A stretch of 64,000 nucleotides of DNA from Robiginitomaculum sp. Its GTDB lineage: Bacteria; Pseudomonadota; Alphaproteobacteria; Caulobacterales; Maricaulaceae. Location: NCBI GenBank assembly GCA_030949705.1, contig JAUZSF010000003.1:124001-188000 (forward strand), written 5' to 3'. Below are positions 46,567-62,567 of this stretch, piece after piece. The notes beneath the pieces were generated by a model. The model searched no databases. It saw nothing but the letters and a program-made list of their open reading frames with translations, and had not been told where the DNA came from. The first letter of the stretch is position 1. Every line of letters begins with the position of its first letter. The translations under genes were made by a program, and so were the position numbers.

Positions 46567-47952
46567 TTATGCCTCGTTATTAAGGCTATTATTGTCACCC
46601 AAAATCTCGGCCAGACGTTGGAACCCATCGTCTAAAGACGTGGCTTCTTCTTTATTCTGACCCAGAAATGCTTCCAGCGGGTCGTGTAATTCTATGGCAC
46701 GATCCACACCGGCATTCGATCCGCGGGCATAAGCACCCAGACGGATTAATTCTTCCATATCGGCATAATCACTCAGCGCGCGACGCGCATTGCGGATCAG
46801 CTCGATTTCATTGTCATCGCAGCAACCAGGCATGGTGCGCGATATGCTTTTCAAAATATTGATAGCAGGAAAACGTCCCCGTTCGGCAATGGCCCGTTCC
46901 ATCACAATATGGCCATCCAATATGCCGCGCGTCGCATCGGCGATTGGCTCGTTATGATCATCGCCATCAACCAGCACCGTGAAAATACCGGTAATGGCCC
47001 CCTCGGGGCGGCCATCGGTGCGACGGCCGGGGCCGGCGCGTTCCAAAAGGCGGGGCAGTTCGTTAAATACGGACGGGGTATAGCCGCGTGTGGTCGGTGG
47101 CTCACCGGCGGCCAGTCCAATTTCGCGCTGAGCCATGGCAAAGCGCGTTACCGAATCCATCAGGCACAGTACATGTTGTCCTTGATCACGGAAATATTCG
47201 GCCACGGTCAGGGTCAATTGCGCCGCCTGGCGGCGACTGAGCGCCGGTTCGTCCGAAGTGGCAACCACCACCACGGTGCGTTTCATGCCCTCGGGACCCA
47301 ACACATCGTCGATAAATTCCTTGACCTCGCGGCCCCGCTCCCCGATCAGCCCGATCACCGCCACATCGCAATCCGCATTTTGTGCCAGCATGGACATGAG
47401 CACGGATTTGCCAACCCCCGAGCCGGCAAACACGCCCATGCGCTGGCCCTTGCAGATTTGTGTAAAGGTATTGATGGCGCGAACGCCGGTATCCATACGC
47501 CCCCCGACCCGGGCCCGGGCATGAGGTGCCGGCGGGCGACCACGCAGGGGATAGGGGTACAAGCCCGGCAATAGCGGCCCGCCATTGTCCACCGGCTTGC
47601 CAAAGGCATCAATGACCCGGCCCAGCCAGGCGCTGGACGGACGCACATAGGGACCTTCGGGGTCGATTTCCATACGGGCCCCGGCGCGCACACCGTCCAG
47701 CGGTCCAAAGGGCATCATCAGGGCATGATCACCGCGAAAGCCCACGACTTCGCAGGCAATATCACCATGACGGGTTTGCGCGGTGGCCCGCGCTCCAAGC
47801 TCCAGCGCATCGGCTGGACCCATGGCTTCAATCATCAGACCGTTTACAGCGGTAACGCGACCGCGAAATCGCCGTGGTTCCAGGGCTTCGATGCTGGCTC
47901 GAAGAGCGTGCATATACGTGAACTCCATCTCAAACGTGTCAGGTTTCATCAC
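46567..47952 (-). CDS. fliI: Flagellar export ATPase FliI
   Basis: FliI is the F1-beta-like hexameric ATPase of flagellar export. Walker A '[14 protein letters not shown]', Walker B region '[23 protein letters not shown]', and '[24 protein letters not shown]' are hallmarks. The N-terminal beta domain contains '[16 protein letters not shown]'. The product is 461 residues if the first ATG is used; the ATG at 'MHALRAS' 13 codons later is an alternative. It is the first gene of fliI-fliJ, oriented against the fliF operon and divergent from ctrA. Confidence 0.95.
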
Positions 47953-48061
47953 AAACCTACACGTGACGCCTTGAGATCACGTAAACGTGGCAACAATAAT
48001 TGTATGAATTACAGTTTTTGTGCCTGACCCCGAATGATTAACAAAATCAGTTTGATTTGTT

Positions 48062-48137
48062 TAAGTTTGGTTAAGGGGATTCCCCTAGCGTAGGGATAGA
48101 GTTAACCATTACGCCAATGAAGCCTGCAAACTGATTC
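48062..48137 (+). promoter_or_regulatory. Candidate ctrA control region (TTAA boxes and GANTC sites)
   Basis: The ctrA leader contains 'TTAAGTTTGGTTAAG' at its left end (two TTAA 6 apart; the CtrA consensus has 7), 'GTTAACCATT' at 48101 resembling a CtrA half-site, and two GANTC sites (48078-48082, 48133-48137). CcrM methylates GANTC in alphaproteobacteria and one such site tunes a ctrA promoter in Caulobacter. Function here is inferred. Confidence 0.4.
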
Positions 48138-48158: not shown

Positions 48159-48854
48159 ATGCGAGTTCTCTTGGTTGAGGATGATAGTGCGATAGCACAA
48201 TCGATTGAGCTGATGCTAAAGTCTGAGGGCTTTAATGTTTATACGACGGATCTTGGTGAAGAAGGTGTCGATCTGGGCAAGCTGTATGATTATGACATCA
48301 TCTTGCTGGACCTTGGTTTGCCGGACATGCCCGGCTTTGACGTATTAAAGCAATTACGGGTTTCCAAGGTGGAAACACCAGTACTGATCCTGTCGGGAAC
48401 TGCCGATACAGAGGTCAAGGTCCAGGGTCTTGGCTATGGCGCCGATGATTATCTGACCAAACCGTTCCACAAGGATGAGCTGGTCGCCCGCATTCATGCG
48501 GTGGTGCGCCGGTCCAAAGGGCATTCGCAATCCATTATCACCACCGGCATGGTGGCGGTTAATCTGGATGCCAAAACCGTTGATGTGAATAAACAGCGCG
48601 TGCATCTGACCGGCAAGGAATACCAGATGCTGGAGCTTCTTTCCTTGCGCAAGGGCACGACACTCACCAAGGAAATGTTCCTCAACCAGCTTTATGGCGG
48701 TCTTGACGAGCCGGAATTGAAAATTATTGACGTGTTTATCTGTAAATTGCGCAAAAAACTCGCCAATGCCACCGGCGGTGAACACTATATCGAAACGGTC
48801 TGGGGCCGTGGCTATGTGTTGCGCGATCCGGCCGAGGAAGAAGAAGCCGCATAA
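48159..48854 (+). CDS. ctrA: Cell-cycle response regulator CtrA
   Basis: CtrA is the OmpR-family master regulator of alphaproteobacterial cell cycle and motility. The receiver has the acidic pocket 'VEDD' and Asp51 in '[12 protein letters not shown]', the same acceptor number as in Caulobacter, with Thr/Lys in 'LSGTAD' and 'YLTKPF'. The winged helix covers about 125-225 ('[32 protein letters not shown]'). The protein ends in Ala-Ala ('EEEEAA'), the position of the ClpXP degradation signal. 231 residues. It is monocistronic, with its own terminator. Confidence 0.96.
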
Positions 48855-48878: not shown

Positions 48879-48907
48879 AAAAGGCGGCTTGATCAGCCGC
48901 CTTTTTT
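48879..48907. terminator. Bidirectional terminator between ctrA and emrB
   Basis: The stem 'aaggcggct' / 'agccgcctt' (48881-48889, 48895-48903; loop 'tgatc') has T runs on both exits. It ends ctrA rightward and the efflux operon leftward. The stop codon of emrB (TGA at 48893-48895) lies in the loop, so the gene ends inside its own terminator. Confidence 0.88.
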
Positions 48908-50401
48908 GTGGGGCGAGCGCAGTAATAAAATAAATGGGGCCGCCAATAGGGAAATCCCCATCATAAAACGAAAATCATTCAGATAGCCGATCAGGGCGGC
49001 TTGCTGATTGATCTGGGCATTTACGATAGCCAGTCGCCCAAGCCCTTCCGGTCCGGTAATGCCCAATGCCGTGACCAGCGGGTTGAAGGGCGTGATGTGC
49101 GCTGCCAGTTCAGCATGATTGATCTGGATATTACGGGCCAACAGGGCAAAGGAAATCGACACCCCGATAGATGAGCCGATATTCCGCACCAGCGAGAACA
49201 GCGCCGTGGCTTCGGTGCGGTATTTCTCATCCAGGGTGGCAAAGGTAATCACCCCCATGGGCACAAAAACGCTCCCAAGACCCAACCCTTGGGCAAAGCC
49301 CGTCCAGATGATGTCTTTTTGACTGACTTCCAAGGTGAACTGACTCATCGAATAAAGGGAAATAACAATCATCATCATGCCACCAGCGATCAGAAAACGT
49401 GGATCAAAACGTTCGGCCAGTCGGCCCATGATCATCATGCCCAGCATCATGCCCAGCCCCCGCGGGGCCAGGACTAGCCCGGTCAGGATCACTGGCCAGC
49501 CCTTAAGGGTCTGCAGGAACGGCGGCAGAATGGCCATGGTGGACAGAAAAATGATCCCCACCAGAAACATAAAGCCCAACCCCATGCTGAGGTTACGGTC
49601 CTTGAACATGGCCGGGTTTAAAAATGGCCGCCGGGTGGTCATGATATGCACCACAAACAGGTATAGGCACAGCACTGCCAGCACCGCTTCGATGACAATT
49701 TCGGGCGCGGAAAACCAGTCCTGAGACTGGCCCCGGTCCAGCATCATTTGCAAGGCCCCGATAGAAAGGCTGAGCAAGGCAAAGCCCGGCCAGTCAAAGG
49801 GCAGCTTGTTTTGCCGATAGGTGCGTTTGACAAACAAGGACAGGCCGGTGATGGCCATCAGACCCACCGGCAGATTGATATAAAACACCCAGCGCCACGA
49901 AAGGGTCTCGGTCAGCCATCCCCCCAGGGTTGGTCCCAATACCGGGCCGATCATCACCCCCACGCCCCAGATGGCAATGGCACGGCCATGTTGATGGCGC
50001 GGGTAAATGTCCAGCAAGACCGCCTGGGACAAGGGTACCAGGGACGCCCCAAAGGCACCTTGCATCAGACGGAAAAATACCAATTGGCCCAGATTGGCCG
50101 CTGCGCCAGCCAACATGGAGGCCACCACAAACCCAGCCACCGCCCCGATAAAGAGGCGTTTGCGCCCAAAGCGTGCCGCCAGGAACCCGGTGGGTGGGGT
50201 CATAATGGCGGCAGAAACAATATAAGAGGTCAATACCCAGGAAATCTGATCCTGGGTGGCCGCCATTGCCCCCTGCATGTGTGGCAGGGCCACATTGGCG
50301 ATGGTGGTGTCAATGGCCTGCATGGTGGTGGCCAGCATCACCGACAGGGTGATCATGGCCCGGTTAGACCCGGCCGTTACCGAAGGTGAATCAGCCGACA
50401 T
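48893..50401 (-). CDS. emrB: EmrB/QacA-type (DHA2) multidrug efflux transporter
   Basis: The 502-residue major facilitator protein has fourteen predicted transmembrane segments. DHA2 markers are near the N terminus ('MLATTMQAIDTTIANVALPHMQG'), 'GFLAARFGRKRLFIGAVAGF' and motif C 'WGVGVMIGPVLGPTLGGWLTE'. With the HlyD-type EmrA upstream and an outer membrane channel elsewhere it would export hydrophobic drugs by proton antiport. The start overlaps emrA by 11 bases. The last gene of marR-emrA-emrB. Confidence 0.93.
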   Translation of the reverse strand: MSADSPSVTAGSNRAMITLSVMLATTMQAIDTTIANVALPHMQGAMAATQDQISWVLTSYIVSAAIMTPPTGFLAARFGRKRLFIGAVAGFVVASMLAGAAANLGQLVFFRLMQGAFGASLVPLSQAVLLDIYPRHQHGRAIAIWGVGVMIGPVLGPTLGGWLTETLSWRWVFYINLPVGLMAITGLSLFVKRTYRQNKLPFDWPGFALLSLSIGALQMMLDRGQSQDWFSAPEIVIEAVLAVLCLYLFVVHIMTTRRPFLNPAMFKDRNLSMGLGFMFLVGIIFLSTMAILPPFLQTLKGWPVILTGLVLAPRGLGMMLGMMIMGRLAERFDPRFLIAGGMMMIVISLYSMSQFTLEVSQKDIIWTGFAQGLGLGSVFVPMGVITFATLDEKYRTEATALFSLVRNIGSSIGVSISFALLARNIQINHAELAAHITPFNPLVTALGITGPEGLGRLAIVNAQINQQAALIGYLNDFRFMMGISLLAAPFILLLRSPHKKGG

Positions 50402-51548
50402 CGGCGCCTAGCCAGCGTAAAGGCATTTGCAAAATGGCCGGCAATGGGCGGTGATAGCCAGTATCAATGCGTACCTTCACGCTCATGCCAGCGCGTAAAA
50501 CCGGTTTGCCTTTATAGCCATCCAAAGCAATGCGTACCGGCACGCGCTGGACCACCTTAACCCAGTTTCCGCTGGCGTTTTGGGGGGGCAGCAAAGAAAA
50601 TTCGGATCCCGTGGCCGGATCAATACTCTCCACATGGCCGCTTAAAGGGGTGTCCGGATAGGCATCCACCCGCAGCTTTGCAGGTTGTCCAACGTGCATA
50701 TGGGTCAGGGCGGTTTCCTTGAAATTAGCCTCAATCCATAATCCTTGATCGGCAACAATCACCATGGCCGGCACACCGGCATGGACGTAATCCCCCAACA
50801 CGGGCACCATGCTTATGGTGCCGGCAATGGGGGCGCGTACAACGGCATTGGCCAGATCCTCCTGAGCCAGTTCAACCTTGGCCCAGGCACCGCGAACACG
50901 TGGATGTTCATGGGGGCTGGCCTTAGGATCTCCCAGCATGGCCCGCAGAACGGCAATTTCCTGGGCTTTGGTTTGCAGTCGGGTGGCCGCCACATCGCGG
51001 TCATGGACATATTCATCCAGCATGGCTTCGGAAACCACTTTGCGATTGGCCAGCTCTTTTCGTCGTTTTAATTCGCGCCGGGAAAAGGACAGGTTTTCAA
51101 GCACCGTTTCGCGCTCGCTTAGGCGTTGCTGGTAATTGGCCTTGGCCGCCATGATTTGCCCCAGGGCTTCATCATGGGCAGCCCGCGCTGCGTCCAGCGC
51201 GGCCTTCAGGCGCTTGGTATCAAGCACAAAGAGAACATCACCGGCCTTCACATGCTGGTTGCTGTGCACGCTGAGTGCGGTGATGGTGCCGGAAATTTCG
51301 GCGCTGACCTGGGCCTTGTCGGCTTTGACATAGGCGTTTTCGGTCTGCATCCAGCGCCCACCCGTCGCGTAAATCCAAAGGGCGATAAAGGCGATGATCA
51401 GAACAGGCGTGCCCATCAACACCACGCGCAAGGTTCTTGGTGAACGCAACCGTTGACGAATTGCTCCCAGCGACATGGCGCTGGATTGCCCCACGGCAAT
51501 GTCTGCCTTGTCCACATCCAGGTCATCATTGGTTTGAGGGGCACTCAT
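50391..51548 (-). CDS. emrA: EmrA-type membrane fusion protein (HlyD family)
   Basis: The periplasmic adaptor of the tripartite efflux pump has one N-terminal transmembrane anchor ('VLIIAFIALWIYATGG', near residue 55), a biotinyl-lipoyl-like domain ('ISGTITALSVHSNQHVKAGDVLFVLD'), a coiled-coil hairpin (about 105-190) and beta-barrel region ('ADQGLWIEANFKETALTHMHVGQPAKLRVD'). 385 residues. Its start overlaps marR by 4 bases and its end overlaps emrB. Confidence 0.93.
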   Translation of the reverse strand: MSAPQTNDDLDVDKADIAVGQSSAMSLGAIRQRLRSPRTLRVVLMGTPVLIIAFIALWIYATGGRWMQTENAYVKADKAQVSAEISGTITALSVHSNQHVKAGDVLFVLDTKRLKAALDAARAAHDEALGQIMAAKANYQQRLSERETVLENLSFSRRELKRRKELANRKVVSEAMLDEYVHDRDVAATRLQTKAQEIAVLRAMLGDPKASPHEHPRVRGAWAKVELAQEDLANAVVRAPIAGTISMVPVLGDYVHAGVPAMVIVADQGLWIEANFKETALTHMHVGQPAKLRVDAYPDTPLSGHVESIDPATGSEFSLLPPQNASGNWVKVVQRVPVRIALDGYKGKPVLRAGMSVKVRIDTGYHRPLPAILQMPLRWLGADVG

Positions 51549-51988
51549 GAAACATCATCCTGCATAAGGTTATCTTTGATATGCATCAGCATGGTGGTGA
51601 GTTGTTTTTTATTTTCTGCGGATAATCCCTGGGTGCCCTTTTTCATCATGGCGGCCCCGATGGCACGAATTTCGCGCAAGACCGGTTCGGCATTATTGGT
51701 CAGATACAGTTGGAACGAGCGCCGGTCATCCGGGTTGATCCGCCGTTCAATCATCTGGTTGGCGGCCAGCAGGTCCAGCTGGCGCGTGAGGGTGATGGGC
51801 CGGATTTCCAACAGGCGGGCCAGCTCGCTCTGGGTGATACCCTGTTGGCGGTCCAGATAAATCAGTGTGCGGTATTGCGCCTGGGTCAGGCGCAAATGGC
51901 GGGCCCGCTCATTAAAGGACTTGCGCAGGATTTGCGCGGTGTCACTGATGGCAAAGGCCAGGGCGCGATCTTCGTTGGCTAAGGGCAT
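51545..51988 (-). CDS. MarR-family transcriptional regulator of the efflux operon
   Basis: The 147-residue winged-helix protein has the MarR recognition region 'LRLTQAQYRTLIYLDRQQGITQSELARLLEIRPITLTRQLDLLAANQMIERR' then the wing 'NPDDRRSFQLYLT'. It lies at the head of the efflux operon, overlapping emrA by 4 bases, and a palindrome stands 20 bases before its start codon, so autorepression relieved by a pump substrate is the expected logic. Confidence 0.92.
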   Translation of the reverse strand: MPLANEDRALAFAISDTAQILRKSFNERARHLRLTQAQYRTLIYLDRQQGITQSELARLLEIRPITLTRQLDLLAANQMIERRINPDDRRSFQLYLTNNAEPVLREIRAIGAAMMKKGTQGLSAENKKQLTTMLMHIKDNLMQDDVS

Positions 51989-52104: not shown

Positions 52105-52938
52105 CTAAGCCACTTTGGCAACAGCCTTTTCTTTGCGGACATAAAGACCGCGTTTGCCAGGTACCGGCACAAAGGCGTCGGAAAGGCCCATGACGGTTTC
52201 CGCCGCGCCCAGAAACAAAAAGCCATCCGGGGCCATACATTGGGCCAGCCGGTTCAAAATGTCGCTTTTGGTTTCCTGATCGAAATAAATAAGCACATTG
52301 CGGCAAAAGACGACGTCGAACTGTCCCAAAGCCCGAAAGCTGTCCAGCAGATTGTATTTTCTGAAGGTGATATGTTGTTGCAGGCTGGGATCAATACGCC
52401 ACAGATCGTCCACTTTTTCAAAGTATTTGACCATCAGCTGTACTGGCAGGCCGCGTTGCACTTCGAATTGGGAGTACAGGCCGGTTTTGGCTTTTTGCAA
52501 TACCTTGTCCGAAATGTCGGTGGCCAGAATGCTGCTGGCCATGCCTTTCATGCGGGCGGCTTCTTCGCGCAGGATCATGGCCAGCGAATAGGGCTCCTGG
52601 CCCGTGGAAGCGGCGGCGCACCAGATCTTGATTTTGGATCCGGGGCGGCGATTGGCAGTCAGGTGTGGAATGACTTCACTTTTGAACAGATCAAAGGGGG
52701 TGCGATCGCGAAAGAAGAACGTTTCATTGGTGGTCATGGCCTCGGTGACCATGGCATTCAGGCGTTCATCATTGCGTGTGCGCATGGCTGCCACCAATGC
52801 CTCAACCGAGGCAAAGTTTTCCTTGCGAGCGATGGGGCCCAGGCGGCTATCCAGCAAATACCCCTTGTCGGCGCTCAGCACATGACCAGAGCGTTTTTTC
52901 AGCATAGAGACCAAAAAGTCGAAGTCCTGGCTATTCAT
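52105..52938 (-). CDS. cheR: Chemotaxis protein methyltransferase CheR
   Basis: CheR methylates glutamates of chemoreceptors using SAM. The N-terminal helical domain ('QDFDFLVSMLKKRSGHVL', 'AMVTEAMTTNETFFFRD') and the SAM-binding core ('KIKIWCAAASTGQEPYSLAMIL', 'ILATDISDKVLQKAKTGLY', 'FDVVFCRNVLIYFDQ') are complete. I start it at 'MNSQDFDF', whose ATG overlaps the cheB stop by one base; the track adds 13 codons inside cheB. It is the last gene of the operon. Confidence 0.95.
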   Translation of the reverse strand: MNSQDFDFLVSMLKKRSGHVLSADKGYLLDSRLGPIARKENFASVEALVAAMRTRNDERLNAMVTEAMTTNETFFFRDRTPFDLFKSEVIPHLTANRRPGSKIKIWCAAASTGQEPYSLAMILREEAARMKGMASSILATDISDKVLQKAKTGLYSQFEVQRGLPVQLMVKYFEKVDDLWRIDPSLQQHITFRKYNLLDSFRALGQFDVVFCRNVLIYFDQETKSDILNRLAQCMAPDGFLFLGAAETVMGLSDAFVPVPGKRGLYVRKEKAVAKVA

Positions 52939-54059
52939 TACAGTTTTCCCCCGCTGACAATCTTCATGATCGTACATCCTATTTGATTTATAGGTTTGAT
53001 TTGTTCGGCAAGACCGGCCTGTACCACCGATCCGGGCATGCCCCAGACCACAGAACTGGCTTCGTCCTGGGCAATGACCTGTGCTCCTGCTTTGACTATC
53101 TGTTCGGCACCGGCACAGCCGTCATGGCCCATGCCGGTAAGAATGACGCCTAAGGCCGCATTGCCGTAGACTTCGGCGGCGCTGCGAAACATAGGGTCCA
53201 CCGCCGGACGGCAATAGTTTTCCTGTGGGCGCTGGTCCAAGCCAATCACAATGCCGCTGCCGACGCGCCGCACCGTCATGTGAAAATCACCCGGTGCCAG
53301 ATAAATACCACTTGATTTCACCGGCATGCCGTCACGCCCCTCAACTACGGGTTTGCGGGCGTTTTTGCTCAAGTGCTCGGCCAGAACGGCGGTAAAGGCC
53401 TTGGGCATATGCTGGGTGATGAAAACCGGGATATTAATCTTGGGGCCAATGGCGGTGATGACATCGCGCAATGCCTGTGGTCCGCCAGTAGAGGAACCGA
53501 TAAAGACCGCTTTGGGCACAGGCCTTGCCGATGCCGTCTGCGGGCGGATGCGCGCGGCGGTACGGGCTGGCGGGGCCATGGGGCGCTTGTGAGCCACTTT
53601 CGCCCGCCGTCCGGCTTCGCCCAACGCTCTGACTTTGGTAATCAGATCCTGGCGGAAATCTTTGGCACCGGCCAGCGAGCTGGATTCGGGTTTTGGCAGA
53701 TAATCCGCAGCGCCATTGGATAAGGCGCGCAAGGTAATATCGGCATTGCGGTGGGTCAGGGTCGAGGCCATCACCACTTTGGTTTTGGGTGCCGCCTTCA
53801 GAATTTGCGGTAATGCCTTCAAGCCATCCAGGCGCGGCATTTCCACATCCAGAATCACTACATCGGGCTGGTGCTCGGCAGCCAGCTTGATGGCTTGCAG
53901 GCCATCGGTGGCCTTGGCAACAATTTCAATGCCGTCTTCTTCGACCAGCCAGCGGGTAATCATGCCGCGAACCACCGCCGAATCATCGGTAATCATGACC
54001 CGGATCGGGTCATTCATACCGTGGGACGGTTTTGGCATTCTGGGCGCGTTCAGGCTCAT
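52938..54059 (-). CDS. cheB: Chemotaxis protein-glutamate methylesterase CheB
   Basis: CheB demethylates or deamidates receptors after phosphorylation by CheA. The receiver (about 18-135) has 'VMITDDSAVVRGMI' and Asp in 'VVILDVEMPRLDG'. The esterase domain (about 185-370) has the Ser nucleophile in 'FIGSSTGGPQAL', His in 'ITQHMPKAF' and Asp in 'LTGMGHDGCAG'. The linker is Arg/Ala/Pro-rich. Start coupled to cheY by ATGA overlap. Confidence 0.96.
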   Translation of the reverse strand: MSLNAPRMPKPSHGMNDPIRVMITDDSAVVRGMITRWLVEEDGIEIVAKATDGLQAIKLAAEHQPDVVILDVEMPRLDGLKALPQILKAAPKTKVVMASTLTHRNADITLRALSNGAADYLPKPESSSLAGAKDFRQDLITKVRALGEAGRRAKVAHKRPMAPPARTAARIRPQTASARPVPKAVFIGSSTGGPQALRDVITAIGPKINIPVFITQHMPKAFTAVLAEHLSKNARKPVVEGRDGMPVKSSGIYLAPGDFHMTVRRVGSGIVIGLDQRPQENYCRPAVDPMFRSAAEVYGNAALGVILTGMGHDGCAGAEQIVKAGAQVIAQDEASSVVWGMPGSVVQAGLAEQIKPINQIGCTIMKIVSGGKL

Positions 54060-54439
54060 GTTTCTGCAGTCACCAACCCGACTTCGGCAAATTTGGAACC
54101 CAGGATTTCACCATCAAAAGGCTTCATAATGTATTCATTGGCGCCGGCGTGCAGGGCCTCGGTGATGTGGCCCATGTCATTTTCCGTGGTGCAGAACACC
54201 ACAATGGGGACATCGCCACCATCTTCCTTGCGAAGCGCTCGCAGAAAATCAATGCCGCTCATGACTGGCATGTTCCAGTCCAGCAAAATGGCATCCGGCA
54301 TGGCCTTGCGGCATTGCTCCAGCGCCTGGGCACCGTCAGCAGCTTCATCGCAGGCAAATTCCATATCTTCCAGAATTCGCCGTGCAACTTTGCGAATCAC
54401 ACGACTGTCATCAACGACTAGACAATTTTTCATAACCAT
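54056..54439 (-). CDS. cheY: Chemotaxis response regulator CheY
   Basis: A stand-alone receiver of 128 residues that would bind the motor switch. 'CLVVDDSRVIRKVARRI', the acceptor Asp in 'AILLDWNMPVMSG', 'VFCTTEND' and the Lys in 'YIMKPFDG' are all present. I start at 'MVMKNCL' behind 'aaagaggac'; the track start adds 18 residues. CheA here also has its own receiver, so this CheY may compete with it for phosphate. Confidence 0.94.
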   Translation of the reverse strand: MVMKNCLVVDDSRVIRKVARRILEDMEFACDEAADGAQALEQCRKAMPDAILLDWNMPVMSGIDFLRALRKEDGGDVPIVVFCTTENDMGHITEALHAGANEYIMKPFDGEILGSKFAEVGLVTAET

Positions 54440-54467
54440 TTGTCCTCTTTTGTCCCCGATCTGCCGC

Positions 54468-54953
54468 TCAGGCTGCCCGAGCTTCCGTTTCACCGATGTT
54501 CAACATTTTTTCTATGTCCAGAATGATCAACAATCGGCCATCCAGACGATAAATGCCGCGGGAAACCCCTTGCCAGACCGGATCGATATTGCTGGGCAGG
54601 GGTTCGCGATCCCGCTCGGCCAGGCGTAAAACCTCGCCAACCCGGTCAATGATCAGGCCATAGGATTCGTTACCCATTTCCACCCCGATGGCCATGTCCT
54701 GATGTCCTTCGGTGTCCGGTTTTGGCAGGCCCAGACGATCACGGGCATCAATGGCGGTAACAATCCGGCCACGCAGGTTCAGCACCCCCTTCACTTCAGG
54801 CGGGGCCATGGGCACCGTGGTCAGGGAATGGGGTTGAAACACATCATGAATGCTGGTGACCTCTATGCCAAACAACTGGTCGGCAATTTCCACGGTGACA
54901 TACTCGCAGGTGTTTTCGTCAATGTGGATGTGTTGGTCCTCTTGCGTACTCAT
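54468..54953 (-). CDS. cheW: Chemotaxis coupling protein CheW
   Basis: CheW links receptors to CheA. The single CheW domain spans about residues 15-150: 'EYVTVEIADQLFGIEVTSIHDVF', 'APPEVKGVLNLRGRIVTAIDARDRLGL', 'NESYGLIIDRVGEVLRL'. 161 residues. Its ATG overlaps the cheA stop by 4 bases. The N terminus has a short acidic tail. Confidence 0.95.
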   Translation of the reverse strand: MSTQEDQHIHIDENTCEYVTVEIADQLFGIEVTSIHDVFQPHSLTTVPMAPPEVKGVLNLRGRIVTAIDARDRLGLPKPDTEGHQDMAIGVEMGNESYGLIIDRVGEVLRLAERDREPLPSNIDPVWQGVSRGIYRLDGRLLIILDIEKMLNIGETEARAA

Positions 54954-57691
54954 GCCGCTTCTCCATGGGTTTGAAGAACATAATCAATGGTGGAAATCAG
55001 TGATTCCCGATCTGCTTTGCGTACGATGTCAGTAAAGGCATCGGTGGCGCCCATGCGGTCCAGATCATTTTGTCCCATGGCTGAAAGCGCCAGGCGAGGA
55101 ATAGAGGACCAGTGCTCGTCGGTTGCCAGTTTGGTGGCAAAGGCAACGCCGGTTTCATCGGGCATTTCAATATCGGAAACAATGACATCAAACTCTGCAC
55201 CGGTTTCGTTCAGGTGCCAGGCCTCGGCCGCACTGCCAACGGCGGTAACTTCATAGCCTGCTGCGGCCAGCAATGGCGCAACCATGTTGCGGAAGAAGGC
55301 ATTATCGTCCACCAGCAAAATACGCTTTTTCTGGGGGATTTCAGCTTCCTTGTCCTGATGGGCGTTTTCGAACCAGTCATGATAGGCGGCCGTCAGATAA
55401 TGGCCCACATCAATCACTTCGGTGGCATTGCCCTTGAGTACCGCGGCCCCGATAATGCCGGGGGTGTTGGCGCTCTTCTCGATGTTCAGGACTTCTTCGA
55501 CAATGTCGACAATCTCATCAACCACCAGACCAACAGAGCGACCGTGATCAGTAAAGACCAGCACCGGCTGACGTTCATTGTCTTCCAGAGGCGCAAAGCC
55601 CCCGATTTGAACCAGAGGCATCAGGCCGCCGCGATATTGTACCAATTGCTCGCCATCAACATTTTCAATACTGGCGGTATTAATTTCTTCCAGGCGGGTT
55701 ACCAGGCTCAGCGGGACGGCTTTTGGCTCGTCCCCGCCGGCTTTGAACAGCAACATGGCAGTTTGATCTTCAATCAGACCCGTCGCAATTTCCGTGTTTT
55801 CGGCGGCGCGTTCATTGTCTTTGCCCAGATTTACCGATTTGGCGATGCCATTGGGATCGACAATCATAATCACGGTGCCATCACCCAAAATGGTGTTACC
55901 GGAGAAAGCGGAAATGCCGCTTAGGACTTTTGCCAGCGGCTTGACCACGATCTCTTCGGTGTCAAAAACATTATCAACCACCACGCCAAAGCGTTGTTCG
56001 CCAACAATCATCACCACCACAAAAGCGTTTTCCGATGATTTTTCGCTGTGTGGGATATTCAGAATATCCGCCAGGTCGATCAATGGTAACAAGGTGTCGC
56101 GAAGGCGCAGCACCCGGGTGTTGTGAATTTCTTCAACCCGGTGTTCACCGTCTTTGGTGGTGCGTACCAGTTCCAGAACCGAGAGTTGCGGAATGGCAAA
56201 GCGGCTGTCGGCGGCTTCGACGATCAAGGCCGATACAATGGCCAGGGTCAGCGGAATTTTGATGGTAAAGGTGGTGCCTTCACCGCCAATGGATTCCAGA
56301 TCAATGGTGCCGCCAATCTGTTCAATATTGTTGCGCACCACGTCCATGCCGACACCGCGACCAGACAGTGAGGTCACTTCCTTGGCGGTGGACAGCCCGG
56401 CGGCAAAGATCAGACGGTGAATCTCGTTCTCCGTCATACTTTCGGCCTGGGCCTCGGTAATGATGCCGTTTTCTATGGCCTTGCGTTTAATTTTCGAGGT
56501 TGGCAGACCGGCCCCATCATCGGCAATTTCAATGACAATATGGCCGCCCTCATGAAAGGCACGCAGATGAATTTGCCCGGCTTCGGGCTTGTTGGCCGCC
56601 AAACGTATGTCGGTTGGCTCCAGACCATGGTCACACGAATTGCGCACCATGTGCGTCAATGGGTCGCGGATCAGTTCCAGCACCTGACGGTCCAATTCGG
56701 TGCTTTCGCCCTCCATGTGCAGTTCAATTTTCTTGCCAACGGCCTTGGCGCTGTCGCGCACAATGCGGGGCAGTTTCTTCCAGGCGCTGCCAATGGGCTG
56801 CATCCGGGTTTTCATAACCCCGTCCTGCAATTCAGCGGTCACACTGGAAAGCCGTTGCAGCGGAACTTTGATTTCAGTGTCGCCCATATGGCGCACCATC
56901 TGCAATAGCTGATTGCGGGTCAGTACCAGTTCGGAAACCATGGTCATCAGGTCTTCGAGCACATCGACATTGACCCGAATGGACTGTGATACCAGTGAAA
57001 CCTCGACAGTGGGGGCGTTCGAGGATTTTTCGGCATCCTCTTTTTTCTTTTTCTCTTCGGCCAGTCTGGTTTGTTCGGCTTCGGCCGCCAGTTTTTCCAG
57101 ATCCGGGCCATCAGCCTCCATAAAGGCGCGCTCCAGATCAGCCAAGGATACTTCACCGGGGCGCAAAGGCCGATCCAGATCCGCATCATAATTTTCTGTA
57201 CTTTCACCACTCTCTTCGCTGGTGGTGACTTCAGGGGTTGCCTCTTCCTGGGGAGCAGGCTCTTCAACGGGCTCTGCCTCGGCCTCTACGGGCGCTTTGG
57301 CGGCAACTTCCATCTTGCCTTCCGAGGCAGCTACCAATTGGGCGATCATATCCGCATCATCACCCTCTGGCTCGCTCTGGGAAGATCCCAAATGGGCCAG
57401 AATAACCTTCAGCTGGTCAATGGCATTGAGGATCAGGGACACCGTATCGGAATTGGGTACCAGCGCTTTGTCACGATATTTACCCAATAAGGTTTCGCCA
57501 GCATGGGCCAATGCCTCCAAACGGGGCAGACCCAAAAATCCGCAAGTGCCTTTTATGGTATGGACCAGTCGGAAAATGTTGTTGAGCGTTTCCTCGTCAT
57601 TGGGGTTCTGTTCGAACTTGACCAGTTCCGCATCTACAGTTTCCAGGCTTTCCGCCGTTTCAGTAAGAAACTCTTCTAGTAGATCATCCAT
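54950..57691 (-). CDS. cheA: Hybrid chemotaxis histidine kinase CheA with two CheW-like domains and a receiver
   Basis: The 913-residue kinase contains an HPt domain with His44 in 'RLVHTIKGTCGFLG', a long acidic linker (about 110-215), dimerisation helices ('VDVLEDLMTMVSELVLTRNQLLQM'), an HATPase domain ('RDPLTHMVRNSCDHGLE', 'DDGAGL', 'LSGRGVGMDVV'), a first CheW-like domain ('ALIVEAADSRFAIPQLSVLELV'), a second one ('TAMLLFKAGGDEPKAVPLSLVTRLEEI'), and a C-terminal receiver ('RILLVDDNAFFRNMVAPLL', Asp in 'VIVSDIEMPDETG'). No P2 CheY-binding domain is obvious. Start at 'MDDLLEEF' after 'gggggag'. Confidence 0.95.
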   Translation of the reverse strand: MDDLLEEFLTETAESLETVDAELVKFEQNPNDEETLNNIFRLVHTIKGTCGFLGLPRLEALAHAGETLLGKYRDKALVPNSDTVSLILNAIDQLKVILAHLGSSQSEPEGDDADMIAQLVAASEGKMEVAAKAPVEAEAEPVEEPAPQEEATPEVTTSEESGESTENYDADLDRPLRPGEVSLADLERAFMEADGPDLEKLAAEAEQTRLAEEKKKKEDAEKSSNAPTVEVSLVSQSIRVNVDVLEDLMTMVSELVLTRNQLLQMVRHMGDTEIKVPLQRLSSVTAELQDGVMKTRMQPIGSAWKKLPRIVRDSAKAVGKKIELHMEGESTELDRQVLELIRDPLTHMVRNSCDHGLEPTDIRLAANKPEAGQIHLRAFHEGGHIVIEIADDGAGLPTSKIKRKAIENGIITEAQAESMTENEIHRLIFAAGLSTAKEVTSLSGRGVGMDVVRNNIEQIGGTIDLESIGGEGTTFTIKIPLTLAIVSALIVEAADSRFAIPQLSVLELVRTTKDGEHRVEEIHNTRVLRLRDTLLPLIDLADILNIPHSEKSSENAFVVVMIVGEQRFGVVVDNVFDTEEIVVKPLAKVLSGISAFSGNTILGDGTVIMIVDPNGIAKSVNLGKDNERAAENTEIATGLIEDQTAMLLFKAGGDEPKAVPLSLVTRLEEINTASIENVDGEQLVQYRGGLMPLVQIGGFAPLEDNERQPVLVFTDHGRSVGLVVDEIVDIVEEVLNIEKSANTPGIIGAAVLKGNATEVIDVGHYLTAAYHDWFENAHQDKEAEIPQKKRILLVDDNAFFRNMVAPLLAAAGYEVTAVGSAAEAWHLNETGAEFDVIVSDIEMPDETGVAFATKLATDEHWSSIPRLALSAMGQNDLDRMGATDAFTDIVRKADRESLISTIDYVLQTHGEAA

Positions 57692-57789
57692 CGTTTTACT
57701 CCCCCACGGGCTACGATTCTGCCCTGGTGCGTCTATCATTAACTGGACTGGTTAAGGGGGTGCTAAGGAGAAACTTAAAAATCAGATAA

Positions 57790-58476
57790 TTATACAGCCT
57801 CTGCGCGAGTCCCAATCATTTCACACGCATCTTCTTCGGTAAGGGCGACAAATTCCACGCCATCTTCCAGAACGCGGGCTTCGGTGCGGCCACCCAGCGA
57901 GCGGGCAATCAGGCCGGTATAAAAAGGCTGGATAGAGCGGCCATCATAACCGTTTTCCATGGCTTTGCCTTCCAGGGCGGTACTGACCGTGGGCAGAAGT
58001 TTGCTCATGCCACCGCGTACGCACACGCGCATGCGCGCGGCCGAGGCGGCCTCAATATACACTTCACCACCGCGCAGGGCCGCTTCGATGCCTAGGATGA
58101 CCATGTTGAGCAATAACCGGGAGGCGGTTTTTGAAAGGTGTGAAGCGGTCACTCGCCAGACGATTTCAGAGCGCGCAGAGGTAAAGGCCCCGACCACCAG
58201 CCGTTCCAGTTCGCGGGTTTCCACCATGCCGGGTGCCGAAGTGCCCGCGCCAAAGGCAATGCGCGCAAATTCCAGCTTGGCAGAGGCTTGCCCCGCAGAC
58301 TGATGCAATAATTTCAGCGCTTCATCACGCATATCGGCGGCGCTGTCATCTTCCATAACCTCCAGGGCGGTGTTGATGGCACTGACTGGAGCCACCAGAT
58401 CATGACATAATCGAGCGCATAAAAGCGCAGCAAGATCTTCGGCAGGCATATCAAAGGGCGCTGGTGTATGGGTCAT
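57790..58476 (-). CDS. chpT: ChpT-like histidine phosphotransferase
   Basis: ChpT passes phosphate from the hybrid kinase CckA to CtrA and CpdR in Caulobacter. This 228-residue protein has the pattern: a helical hairpin with the phospho-accepting His25 in 'ALLCARLCHDLVAPVSAINTALEVMEDD', and a C-terminal pseudo-HATPase ('RLLLNMVILGIEAALRGGEVYIEA', 'GLIARSLGG'). It is 98 bases upstream of cheA on the same strand, in likely one transcript with the chemotaxis genes. Whether it is the canonical CtrA relay or a chemotaxis-specific one cannot be decided by sequence alone. Confidence 0.87.
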   Translation of the reverse strand: MTHTPAPFDMPAEDLAALLCARLCHDLVAPVSAINTALEVMEDDSAADMRDEALKLLHQSAGQASAKLEFARIAFGAGTSAPGMVETRELERLVVGAFTSARSEIVWRVTASHLSKTASRLLLNMVILGIEAALRGGEVYIEAASAARMRVCVRGGMSKLLPTVSTALEGKAMENGYDGRSIQPFYTGLIARSLGGRTEARVLEDGVEFVALTEEDACEMIGTRAEAV

Positions 58477-58737: not shown

Positions 58738-60174
58738 ATGAATGCGCACGCTATAGTGCAGGCGGGCATCAATGCGGTGATGCATGCAAATCTAAAAAGA
58801 GAGCACAAGGTGTTGGGCCTGGTTGCCTTTGTGGTGCCGGTCTTGTTGATGAGCGCAGCCTTTTATAATGCTTATGCGCGCCCAGCCCCTGCCGCGATCA
58901 ATACCGCCCATGTGCCGGTTGAGGTCATTAAAGAAGAACCGCCATTGCCCCCCTTGCCGGATATGGCGGTTCTGGAACAAACTGTATTTGGCGAGTTGAT
59001 CGAAACCCGCCTTAGTCGCGTACACAATCAGATGATCAAGGTGCGCCCCGGGGCCACCTTGTCCAATTTACTGGAAAATGCCGGTGTGGATCGGGGTGAG
59101 GCGGCGCGGGCCATTACCGCCCTGTCGCGCACCTATAACCCCCGCCAGCTGCGTGCCGGGCAAATGTTGACCCTGTCGCTGGAAAGCCTGGATACCAGCG
59201 TGGCCAAAAAGGGTGTGCGGTATCATCTTGCTGGCCTGACCACCAAACCTGATGTTACCCGCACGGTCTTGCTGGAGCGCGAACACAATGGCGATTTTTC
59301 CGCCCGCGAACTGGTGATGGATCTTGAAAAGGGCGAAACGCGGGCCCGCGGCAGCATTGATTCTTCTTTATATGTGGATGGCCTGGCGGCTGGTGCCAAT
59401 GATGCGGTGATTGCCGCCTTTGCCCAGCTTTATGCCTATTCGGTTGATTTTCAGCGGGGCATTCGCCCCGGCGATCGCTTTGACATGGTGTTTGAGGATT
59501 ATCGCGATGACCGTGGAAATTCCATCAAGTCTGGTAATCTGATTTATGCCATGCTGGCCCCGCGGGGCAAGGAAAAGGCCTTTTATCGTTTTGAAACGCC
59601 GGATGGTGAAGTGGGCTATTACAATGCCGAGGGGCAAAGCGCCAAACGATTTTTGATGAAGACGCCTATTAAAGGCGCGCGTATTTCCTCTGGCTTTGGG
59701 CGGCGCATGCACCCGGTACTGGGCTATACGCGCAAGCACAAGGGCACTGATTTTGCCGCCGTAACCGGTACGCCGATCATGGCGGCAGGCAATGGCGTGA
59801 TCGAGCGCGCCTCGCGCTACGGTTCCTATGGCAATTATGTGCGTATCCGCCATTCCAATGGCTATAAAACCGCCTATGCACATATGTCCAAATATGGCCG
59901 GGGTATTCGCAAGGGGCGCCGGGTCACACAGGGGCAGATCATTGGCTATGTGGGGGCCACTGGCCGGGTAACTGGCGCCCATCTGCATTATGAAGTGCTG
60001 AAAAATGGCCGTCAGGTGAACCCGATGACTGTCAAAGTGCCCACCGGGCGCAAGCTCAAAGCCAATGAACTAAAACTGTTTGCCAAGGAAAAGGCCCGCA
60101 TTGATGAGTTGATCAAAAATGCTCGTCCGGCCAAAATCGTCAACAGCCAGCTGGCCTCGGCGGGGCAGCGTTAG
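58738..60174 (+). CDS. M23-family murein endopeptidase (membrane-anchored)
   Basis: The protein is a LytM-type zinc endopeptidase that should cleave peptidoglycan cross-bridges. A single N-terminal transmembrane segment ('VLGLVAFVVPVLLMSAAFY') is followed by an OapA/LysM-like domain ('VRPGATLSNLLENAGVDRGEAARAI', about residues 100-150), and the catalytic domain (about 315-430): 'GRRMHPVLGYTRKHKGTDF' with the zinc His and Asp, and 'GAHLHYEVLKNGRQVNP'. 478 residues, similar to MepM. Its 3-prime end overlaps the opposing gene by 4 bases. Confidence 0.92.
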   Translation: MNAHAIVQAGINAVMHANLKREHKVLGLVAFVVPVLLMSAAFYNAYARPAPAAINTAHVPVEVIKEEPPLPPLPDMAVLEQTVFGELIETRLSRVHNQMIKVRPGATLSNLLENAGVDRGEAARAITALSRTYNPRQLRAGQMLTLSLESLDTSVAKKGVRYHLAGLTTKPDVTRTVLLEREHNGDFSARELVMDLEKGETRARGSIDSSLYVDGLAAGANDAVIAAFAQLYAYSVDFQRGIRPGDRFDMVFEDYRDDRGNSIKSGNLIYAMLAPRGKEKAFYRFETPDGEVGYYNAEGQSAKRFLMKTPIKGARISSGFGRRMHPVLGYTRKHKGTDFAAVTGTPIMAAGNGVIERASRYGSYGNYVRIRHSNGYKTAYAHMSKYGRGIRKGRRVTQGQIIGYVGATGRVTGAHLHYEVLKNGRQVNPMTVKVPTGRKLKANELKLFAKEKARIDELIKNARPAKIVNSQLASAGQR

Positions 60175-61861: not shown

Positions 61862-62437
61862 ATGGCGAAATCCAAAACCAATGCGAATGATCCGGTGGTG
61901 ATCAAGAAATACGCCAATCGGCGGCTGTATGATACGACACGCAGCGCCTATATCACGCTGGATGATCTAAAGGCGCTGGTGCATGAGGGCACGGATTTTG
62001 TGGTGCAGGACGCCAAAAGTGGCGAAGATCTGACCCATAGCGTGCTGACCCAGATTATTTTTGAACAGGAGGCCCAGGGACAGCATTTGTTGCCGGTGGA
62101 TTTTTTGCGCCAACTGATCCGGTTCTATGGCGACAGCATGCAAAATATCGTGCCCGGTTTTTTGGACATGAGCATGAATTCCCTGGCGCAAAGCAAGGAA
62201 CGCTTTGCCAAGCAAATGGGCAGTACGGCAACCAATCCCCTGTTTGGTCTTTTCGAGGAACAGGTACGCCAGAATATGGCCCTGTTTGAAAGTACATTAA
62301 AATCAATGTCGTCCTTTGGGACCAGCCAGCCCGAACCAAAGTCCGAACCGGCAGCCCCGGCCAAGCGCGATGATGATCTGGACGAATTGCGCGCGCAAAT
62401 GGCCGCCATGCAGGAAAAGCTCGACAAGCTGGGCTGA
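61862..62437 (+). CDS. phaR: Polyhydroxyalkanoate synthesis repressor PhaR
   Basis: PhaR represses phasin and PHA genes and senses the polymer. The N-terminal domain 'VIKKYANRRLYDTTRSAYITLDDLKALV' is the defining PHB/PHA accumulation-regulator DNA-binding motif, followed by 'HSVLTQIIFEQEAQG' and a helical C-terminal region with a coiled-coil end ('DLDELRAQMAAMQEKLDKLG'). 191 residues. It is divergent from phaB, with 127 bases between starts, the natural place for its operator. Confidence 0.95.
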   Translation: MAKSKTNANDPVVIKKYANRRLYDTTRSAYITLDDLKALVHEGTDFVVQDAKSGEDLTHSVLTQIIFEQEAQGQHLLPVDFLRQLIRFYGDSMQNIVPGFLDMSMNSLAQSKERFAKQMGSTATNPLFGLFEEQVRQNMALFESTLKSMSSFGTSQPEPKSEPAAPAKRDDDLDELRAQMAAMQEKLDKLG

Positions 62438-62567
62438 TCCAAACTGGCACAGGTTTGGGGGCATGCACGCATCAATGGCGCCTTATTTATGGTTAATGGC
62501 GTGTTAATCGCCTAGGATTGCCAAAGCGGGCCAGATTTTCCGGCGCGTCTTTTGCAATTGGTAGGGC

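Follow-up and report, generated by a model that had tools for sequence, protein, structure and literature searches.

Here we analyse a 64-kb stretch of Robiginitomaculum sp. DNA (contig JAUZSF010000003.1, positions 124,001–188,000; the whole stretch is called the window below) in which a chpT gene lies directly upstream of a chemotaxis operon headed by a hybrid cheA. This arrangement recurs across Alphaproteobacteria, and the gap between the two genes carries a conserved candidate CtrA box at a fixed distance from a −10-like element. The reading that we favour, with a probability of roughly 70%, is that this is an ancestral motility locus in which phosphorylated CtrA (CtrA~P), charged via ChpT, would activate cheA, cheW, cheY, cheB and cheR (cheAWYBR) from a promoter in the gap, and in which the CheA receiver would not feed ChpT. 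An original prediction made from the DNA alone had proposed that the receiver of CheA passes phosphate to ChpT and hence to CtrA, joining chemosensing to the cell cycle. Our analysis supports a link between the two systems and leaves the proposed direction and chemistry unsupported; the evidence points instead to a transcriptional link, in which CtrA would act on the che genes.

A single ChpT upstream of a hybrid CheA

The prediction of a chpT-like gene directly upstream of the operon holds in both coordinates and domains in Pfam and NCBIfam. The protein matches the Pfam C-terminal domain PF10090 with 82.4 bits, above the curated cut-off of 22.9, and three solved ChpT sequences (PDB 4fmt, 4fpp and 4qpj) match it in phmmer with E values of about 1e-35. 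The NCBIfam Caulobacter ChpT model is its best family at 213.6 bits, below a cut-off of 225 that delimits the Caulobacter-group equivalog and not the entire ChpT family. The helix-1 contacts in HDLVAPVSAINT, namely the phosphoacceptor His, Pro at H+5 and Ala at H+8, are all present; H+11 is Thr (Asn in 90% of the ChpTs linked to cheA) and H+4 is Ala (usually Ser or Gly). Another chpT copy elsewhere could have served the CtrA relay, and we found none: the window gene is the only PF10090 match in the whole assembly (2.83 Mb, 92% complete), which also encodes one clear CckA, one clear CtrA, eight chemoreceptor domains, one CheA with its CheW domains and one CheW. The sequence evidence thus supports the gene as the ChpT of the CtrA relay, with predicted transfer to CtrA.

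Pfam likewise agrees with the predicted CheA architecture, giving Hpt, H-kinase_dim, HATPase_c, two CheW domains and a C-terminal Response_reg domain. Two CheW domains with a C-terminal receiver place the protein in the F5 class, an assignment that draws solely on architecture and gene order. The cheA gene more probably starts at the ATG at 57691 than at 57739, because the MDDLL encoded from 57691 is (nearly) invariant across 16 homologues and GGGGGAG lies just upstream. After chpT the genes run cheA, cheW, cheY, cheB and cheR, ending at 52105 (Table 1).

Table 1. Features of the chpT–che–ctrA locus, in window positions
Feature	Position	Strand	Description
fliI	46567..47952	minus	Flagellar export ATPase, beyond ctrA; named by eye
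Candidate CtrA box	48059..48074	minus	TTAACCAAACTTAAAC; about 85 bp upstream of ctrA
ctrA	48159..48854	plus	Convergent with the che operon
marR-type regulator, hlyD-type and MFS efflux genes	48893..51988	minus	Between cheR and ctrA; named by eye from open reading frames
cheR	52105..52977	minus	Pfam CheR, 206 bits
cheB	52938..54059	minus	NCBIfam CheB, over cut-off
cheY	54056..54493	minus	Pfam Response_reg, 100 bits, single domain
cheW	54468..54953	minus	Pfam CheW, 109.7 bits
cheA	54950..57739	minus	F5-type hybrid; likely true start 57691
CheA C-terminal receiver	54986..55321	minus	Pfam Response_reg, residues 807–918; helix 1 DDNAFFRNMVAPLL
−10-like hexamer	57735..57740	minus	AATGAT; at conserved distance from the candidate CtrA box
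Candidate CtrA box	57751..57766	minus	TTAGCACCCCCTTAAC; TTAA-N7-TTAAC with one mismatch, in the chpT–cheA gap
chpT	57790..58476	minus	Histidine phosphotransferase of the CckA–ChpT–CtrA relay; phosphoacceptor motif CHDLVAPVSAIN

The chpT–che arrangement recurs across the class

In a class sample of 385 genomes drawn evenly from Alphaproteobacteria, ChpT matches were present in 240 genomes and CheA matches in 169. Linkage was counted among the best 150 matches of each, so that the counts are lower bounds; they come from partly fragmentary assemblies and, like the motif counts below, from related genomes that are not independent events. Among the matches listed, 67 genomes have both ChpT and a long CheA (860 aa or more); in 58 of them chpT lies upstream of cheA on the same strand, including one, G028, in which 5 kb separates the two matches. 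For short CheAs the corresponding count is only 2 of 51, and those frames are just 432 and 457 aa long. When the DNA of the other long CheAs was read directly, chpT was upstream in 14 more, and genome G283 has, besides its listed CheA, another that is linked to chpT. Thus, of the 95 genomes in which a long CheA was listed, at least 73 have chpT ahead of a hybrid cheA, and they represent about 46 families by manual count.

The order chpT-cheA-(cheW)-cheY-cheB-cheR is found in Bradyrhizobium, Nitrobacter, Rhodoplanes, Pseudovibrio, Stappia, Roseibium, Sneathiella, Telmatospirillum and others. In most of 89 same-contig pairs, ctrA is found downstream of chpT, on the opposite strand and no more than about 10 kb away; in about 18 genomes only 74 to 1,600 bp separate the two genes, too little to fit a che operon between them. 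For some CheA-receiver proteins, among them second copies in Bradyrhizobium, chpT is not close by. Because it recurs across the class, the arrangement is confirmed as far beyond chance and not a local oddity. Each of its parts is already known, and no description of the chpT–cheA linkage or of the conserved neighbourhood was found in the open-licence papers searched.

Two unusual ChpT-bearing frames were seen along the way. In one locus (L139, 2272–4674), an 801-aa frame that adjoins a CtrA-like gene ends in a ChpT domain, and its first 670 residues have no Pfam match; no fused kinase was found in the 801-aa ChpT-bearing frame of genome G338, for which Pfam gives PF10090 alone. In G283 (loci L013 and L266), the PF10090 match lies within a 621-aa open frame, with a 948-aa CheA downstream.

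A candidate CtrA promoter in the chpT–cheA gap

CtrA recognizes the consensus TTAA-N7-TTAA. We counted matches to it in the chpT–cheA gap and compared them with the same half-sites at other spacings, a control in which base composition and relatedness are unchanged. When at most one mismatch is allowed, the N7 spacing occurs in the gap of 92 of 136 loci; the remaining spacings between 2 and 13 are found in 11 to 46 loci each, with N6 the most frequent of them. The same excess appears in the class sample alone (46/69, versus 2 to 20 at other spacings) and in a set of nearest relatives (45/66, versus 5 to 26). The stricter pattern TTAA-N7-TTAAC on the coding strand is present in 56 loci, compared with 4.2 on average, and never more than 10, in 100 shuffles.

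When these loci were aligned on the box, an A....T pair resembling the second and last bases of a −10 hexamer stood at offset 27/31 in 34 of the 56 sites, versus 0 to 6 at other offsets. The offset was spotted in the aligned columns and all offsets were then tested, so that it had not been predicted in advance. Allowing two mismatches in the class sample gives 41 of 54 at that offset, versus 0 to 7 elsewhere, and the fixed offset is seen in both the class sample and the nearest-relative set. The window has both a box, with one mismatch, and a −10-like hexamer at the fixed distance from it; only seven such box matches occur on both strands of its 64 kb. At the level of sequence, then, the spacing of box and −10 element is conserved, and we infer that CtrA binds here and activates cheAWYBR as a co-transcribed unit.

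In front of chpT itself, N7 shows a modest excess in the class sample (20/69, versus 4 to 12) and none in the nearest-relative set. A further candidate box, TTAACCAAACTTAAAC, precedes ctrA and suggests self-regulation. Separately, a perfect match to the box (TTAACACGCCATTAAC, 62492–62507, minus strand) is intergenic, just after the open reading frame at 61862–62437.

Several points weigh against an activating promoter and a one-way link. No recognisable box with one mismatch or less is present in 44 of the 136 loci, and the mismatch in the window falls in the first half-site, which reads TTAG. The loci are related by descent, so their counts are not independent, a relatedness that the spacing control shares. 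The box may also serve repression. Finally, mutants of Azospirillum brasilense Che1, an operon of the orthologous kind, change cell length (PMC8561660), an effect for which a one-way model has no explanation.

The CheA receiver lacks the ChpT-docking signature

The CckA receiver, CtrA and CpdR have been compared as ChpT partners: an Ala–Ala contact (CckA A581 and CtrA A11; Ser in CpdR) is common to the modelled CckA complex and the ChpT–CtrA crystal complex, and a FATGUY motif common to CckA and CpdR has been linked to ChpT partnering (PMC9981736). At the position of CckA A581 and CtrA A11, where CckA has Ala in 68%, Pro in 13% and Gly in 6% and CtrA has Ala in 68% and Ser in 11%, the window CheA receiver has Phe and not a small residue. 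So does every aligned row among 137 receivers of CheAs linked to chpT (93%; the other 7% are misextracted CheW segments, such as L196 and L230, that appear as gaps, or are otherwise gapped). Among 36 unlinked CheA receivers the figures are 81% Phe, 17% gaps and 3% Val. The CheA receiver also has Pro at the CtrA L18 contact and, at β4, LALSAM with no FATGUY motif; CckA from the same genome has FISGF.

Receiver helix 1 is nearly invariant among CheAs, and the FFRN...P helix recurs in six genomes from another class of the phylum (L272, L274–L277 and L279); a PF10090 search of these six and four more found no match. Comparison of 136 linked with 21 unlinked ChpTs shows no clear shift in their helix 1, which looks alike in both. 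At the contact site, about 95% of the operon CheYs carry Val. The CheA receiver is therefore, on its residues, without the ChpT-docking signature. These comparisons lower the likelihood of transfer from CheA to ChpT, and a different docking mode is possible.

Alternative explanations

If phosphate did pass from the CheA receiver through ChpT to CtrA, as originally proposed, chemoreceptors would gate the cell cycle. Such a route could account for the conserved adjacency of chpT and hybrid cheA, and the receiver retains its acidic pair, phospho-Asp, Ser and Lys. We nevertheless consider it improbable, given the Phe and Pro at the two contacts, the missing FATGUY, the identical pattern both in receivers of unlinked CheAs and in genomes of a second class, for which the PF10090 search gave no ChpT, and a ChpT helix 1 that shows no clear shift with linkage. 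The cell-length effect, moreover, is ascribed to a membrane-bound CheA1 isoform with a TMX domain. Flow in the reverse direction, in which CckA-charged ChpT~P would phosphorylate the CheA receiver or the CheY of the operon so that cell-cycle state tunes swimming directly, could draw on the same adjacency and on the knowledge that ChpT serves at least two receivers (CtrA and CpdR; PMC9981736). It seems still less probable, with the helix-1 mismatch standing against the CheA receiver and the Val at the contact site against CheY. Should ChpT and the CheA receiver exchange phosphoryl groups directly, in either direction, by docking unlike that of CckA and CtrA, then chemoreceptor arrays and the CtrA relay would share one phosphate pool across Alphaproteobacteria; we regard this as a long shot.

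The genes might also have been kept together simply as parts of a motility island, unconnected by any specific regulation or phosphotransfer. The operon is flanked by fliI and ctrA, and descent alone can preserve gene order. Inertia does not suffice, however, to explain why a CtrA-spaced box with a fixed −10 is kept across families in a non-coding gap, and we think it unlikely that neighbourhood is the whole explanation.

Under the CtrA-driven model that we favour, the ancestral alphaproteobacterial locus would have comprised fliI, ctrA and cheR-cheB-cheY-cheW-cheA-chpT. Phosphate from CckA would pass to ChpT and on to CtrA (and CpdR), and CtrA~P would occupy the box over the −35 region of the promoter and switch on cheAWYBR, with read-through from chpT possibly adding to their expression. 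The cell-cycle relay would therefore set the timing of chemotaxis protein production. The CheA receiver would work within chemotaxis, as a phosphate sink or in control of Hpt dephosphorylation. Published work agrees with this last step: two CheW domains are standard in hybrid F5 CheAs, whose receiver is thought to serve CheA itself, and Hpt dephosphorylation requires the receiver in Azorhizobium caulinodans, a phosphate sink being the usual role (reviewed in PMC10542144).

Flanking genes

CtrA in the window is 79% identical over 224 aa to a Caulobacter CtrA query, and relatives of its FliI occur in 60 of the 72 loci that have ctrA in reach. The 3.25 kb between ctrA and cheR is occupied by the efflux-type cluster. 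Among the loci searched, relatives of its MFS and HlyD genes occur only in the nearest relative, a Robiginitomaculum metagenome-assembled genome (L170) whose CheA is 87% identical; in three further Robiginitomaculum loci (L172–L174), ctrA lies 84–98 bp from cheR. Divergent from chpT is an M23 peptidase gene (58738–60174), with relatives in five other loci only (L170, L172, L174, L202 and L209).

Significance and comparison with known systems

The conserved neighbourhood links the cell-cycle relay with chemotaxis over much of Alphaproteobacteria, and gives physical support to the proposal that motility was the first role of CtrA (PMC8116508). A survey of CtrA-relay gene positions in the same paper reported that only 27–36% of Rhodospirillales genomes had chpT, whose orthologues it described as difficult to recognise; a position upstream of an F5 cheA or beside ctrA would reveal candidates. 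If A. brasilense che1 has the same neighbours, it is also a possible place to seek the effect of CheA1 on cell length.

The F5 operons A. brasilense che1, Rhodospirillum centenum che1 and A. caulinodans che likewise encode a CheA that combines two CheW domains with a C-terminal receiver, and the order of A. brasilense che1, which we take to be cheA-W-Y-B-R, is the same as here. An upstream chpT, a downstream ctrA and a CtrA box, all present in the window, are undescribed for them in the papers searched; the window CheA has no TMX domain. As in the CckA–ChpT–CtrA/CpdR relay of Caulobacter and Brucella, a single ChpT with the main helix-1 contacts is accompanied by CckA and CtrA, with the difference that chpT here shares a cluster with che genes and ctrA. 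A precedent for Che phosphate flow into a developmental regulator is R. centenum Che3 (CheA3/CheS3, cyst formation), which has a different partner set, with no ChpT or CtrA named in the excerpt of PMC3868531 available to us. The closest parallel in regulation is the major chemotaxis operon of Caulobacter crescentus, which depends on CtrA according to the title of Jones et al. 2001, as cited in PMC2877005. We propose CtrA control of che genes here too, from a promoter that would lie between chpT and cheA in an arrangement that is class-wide.

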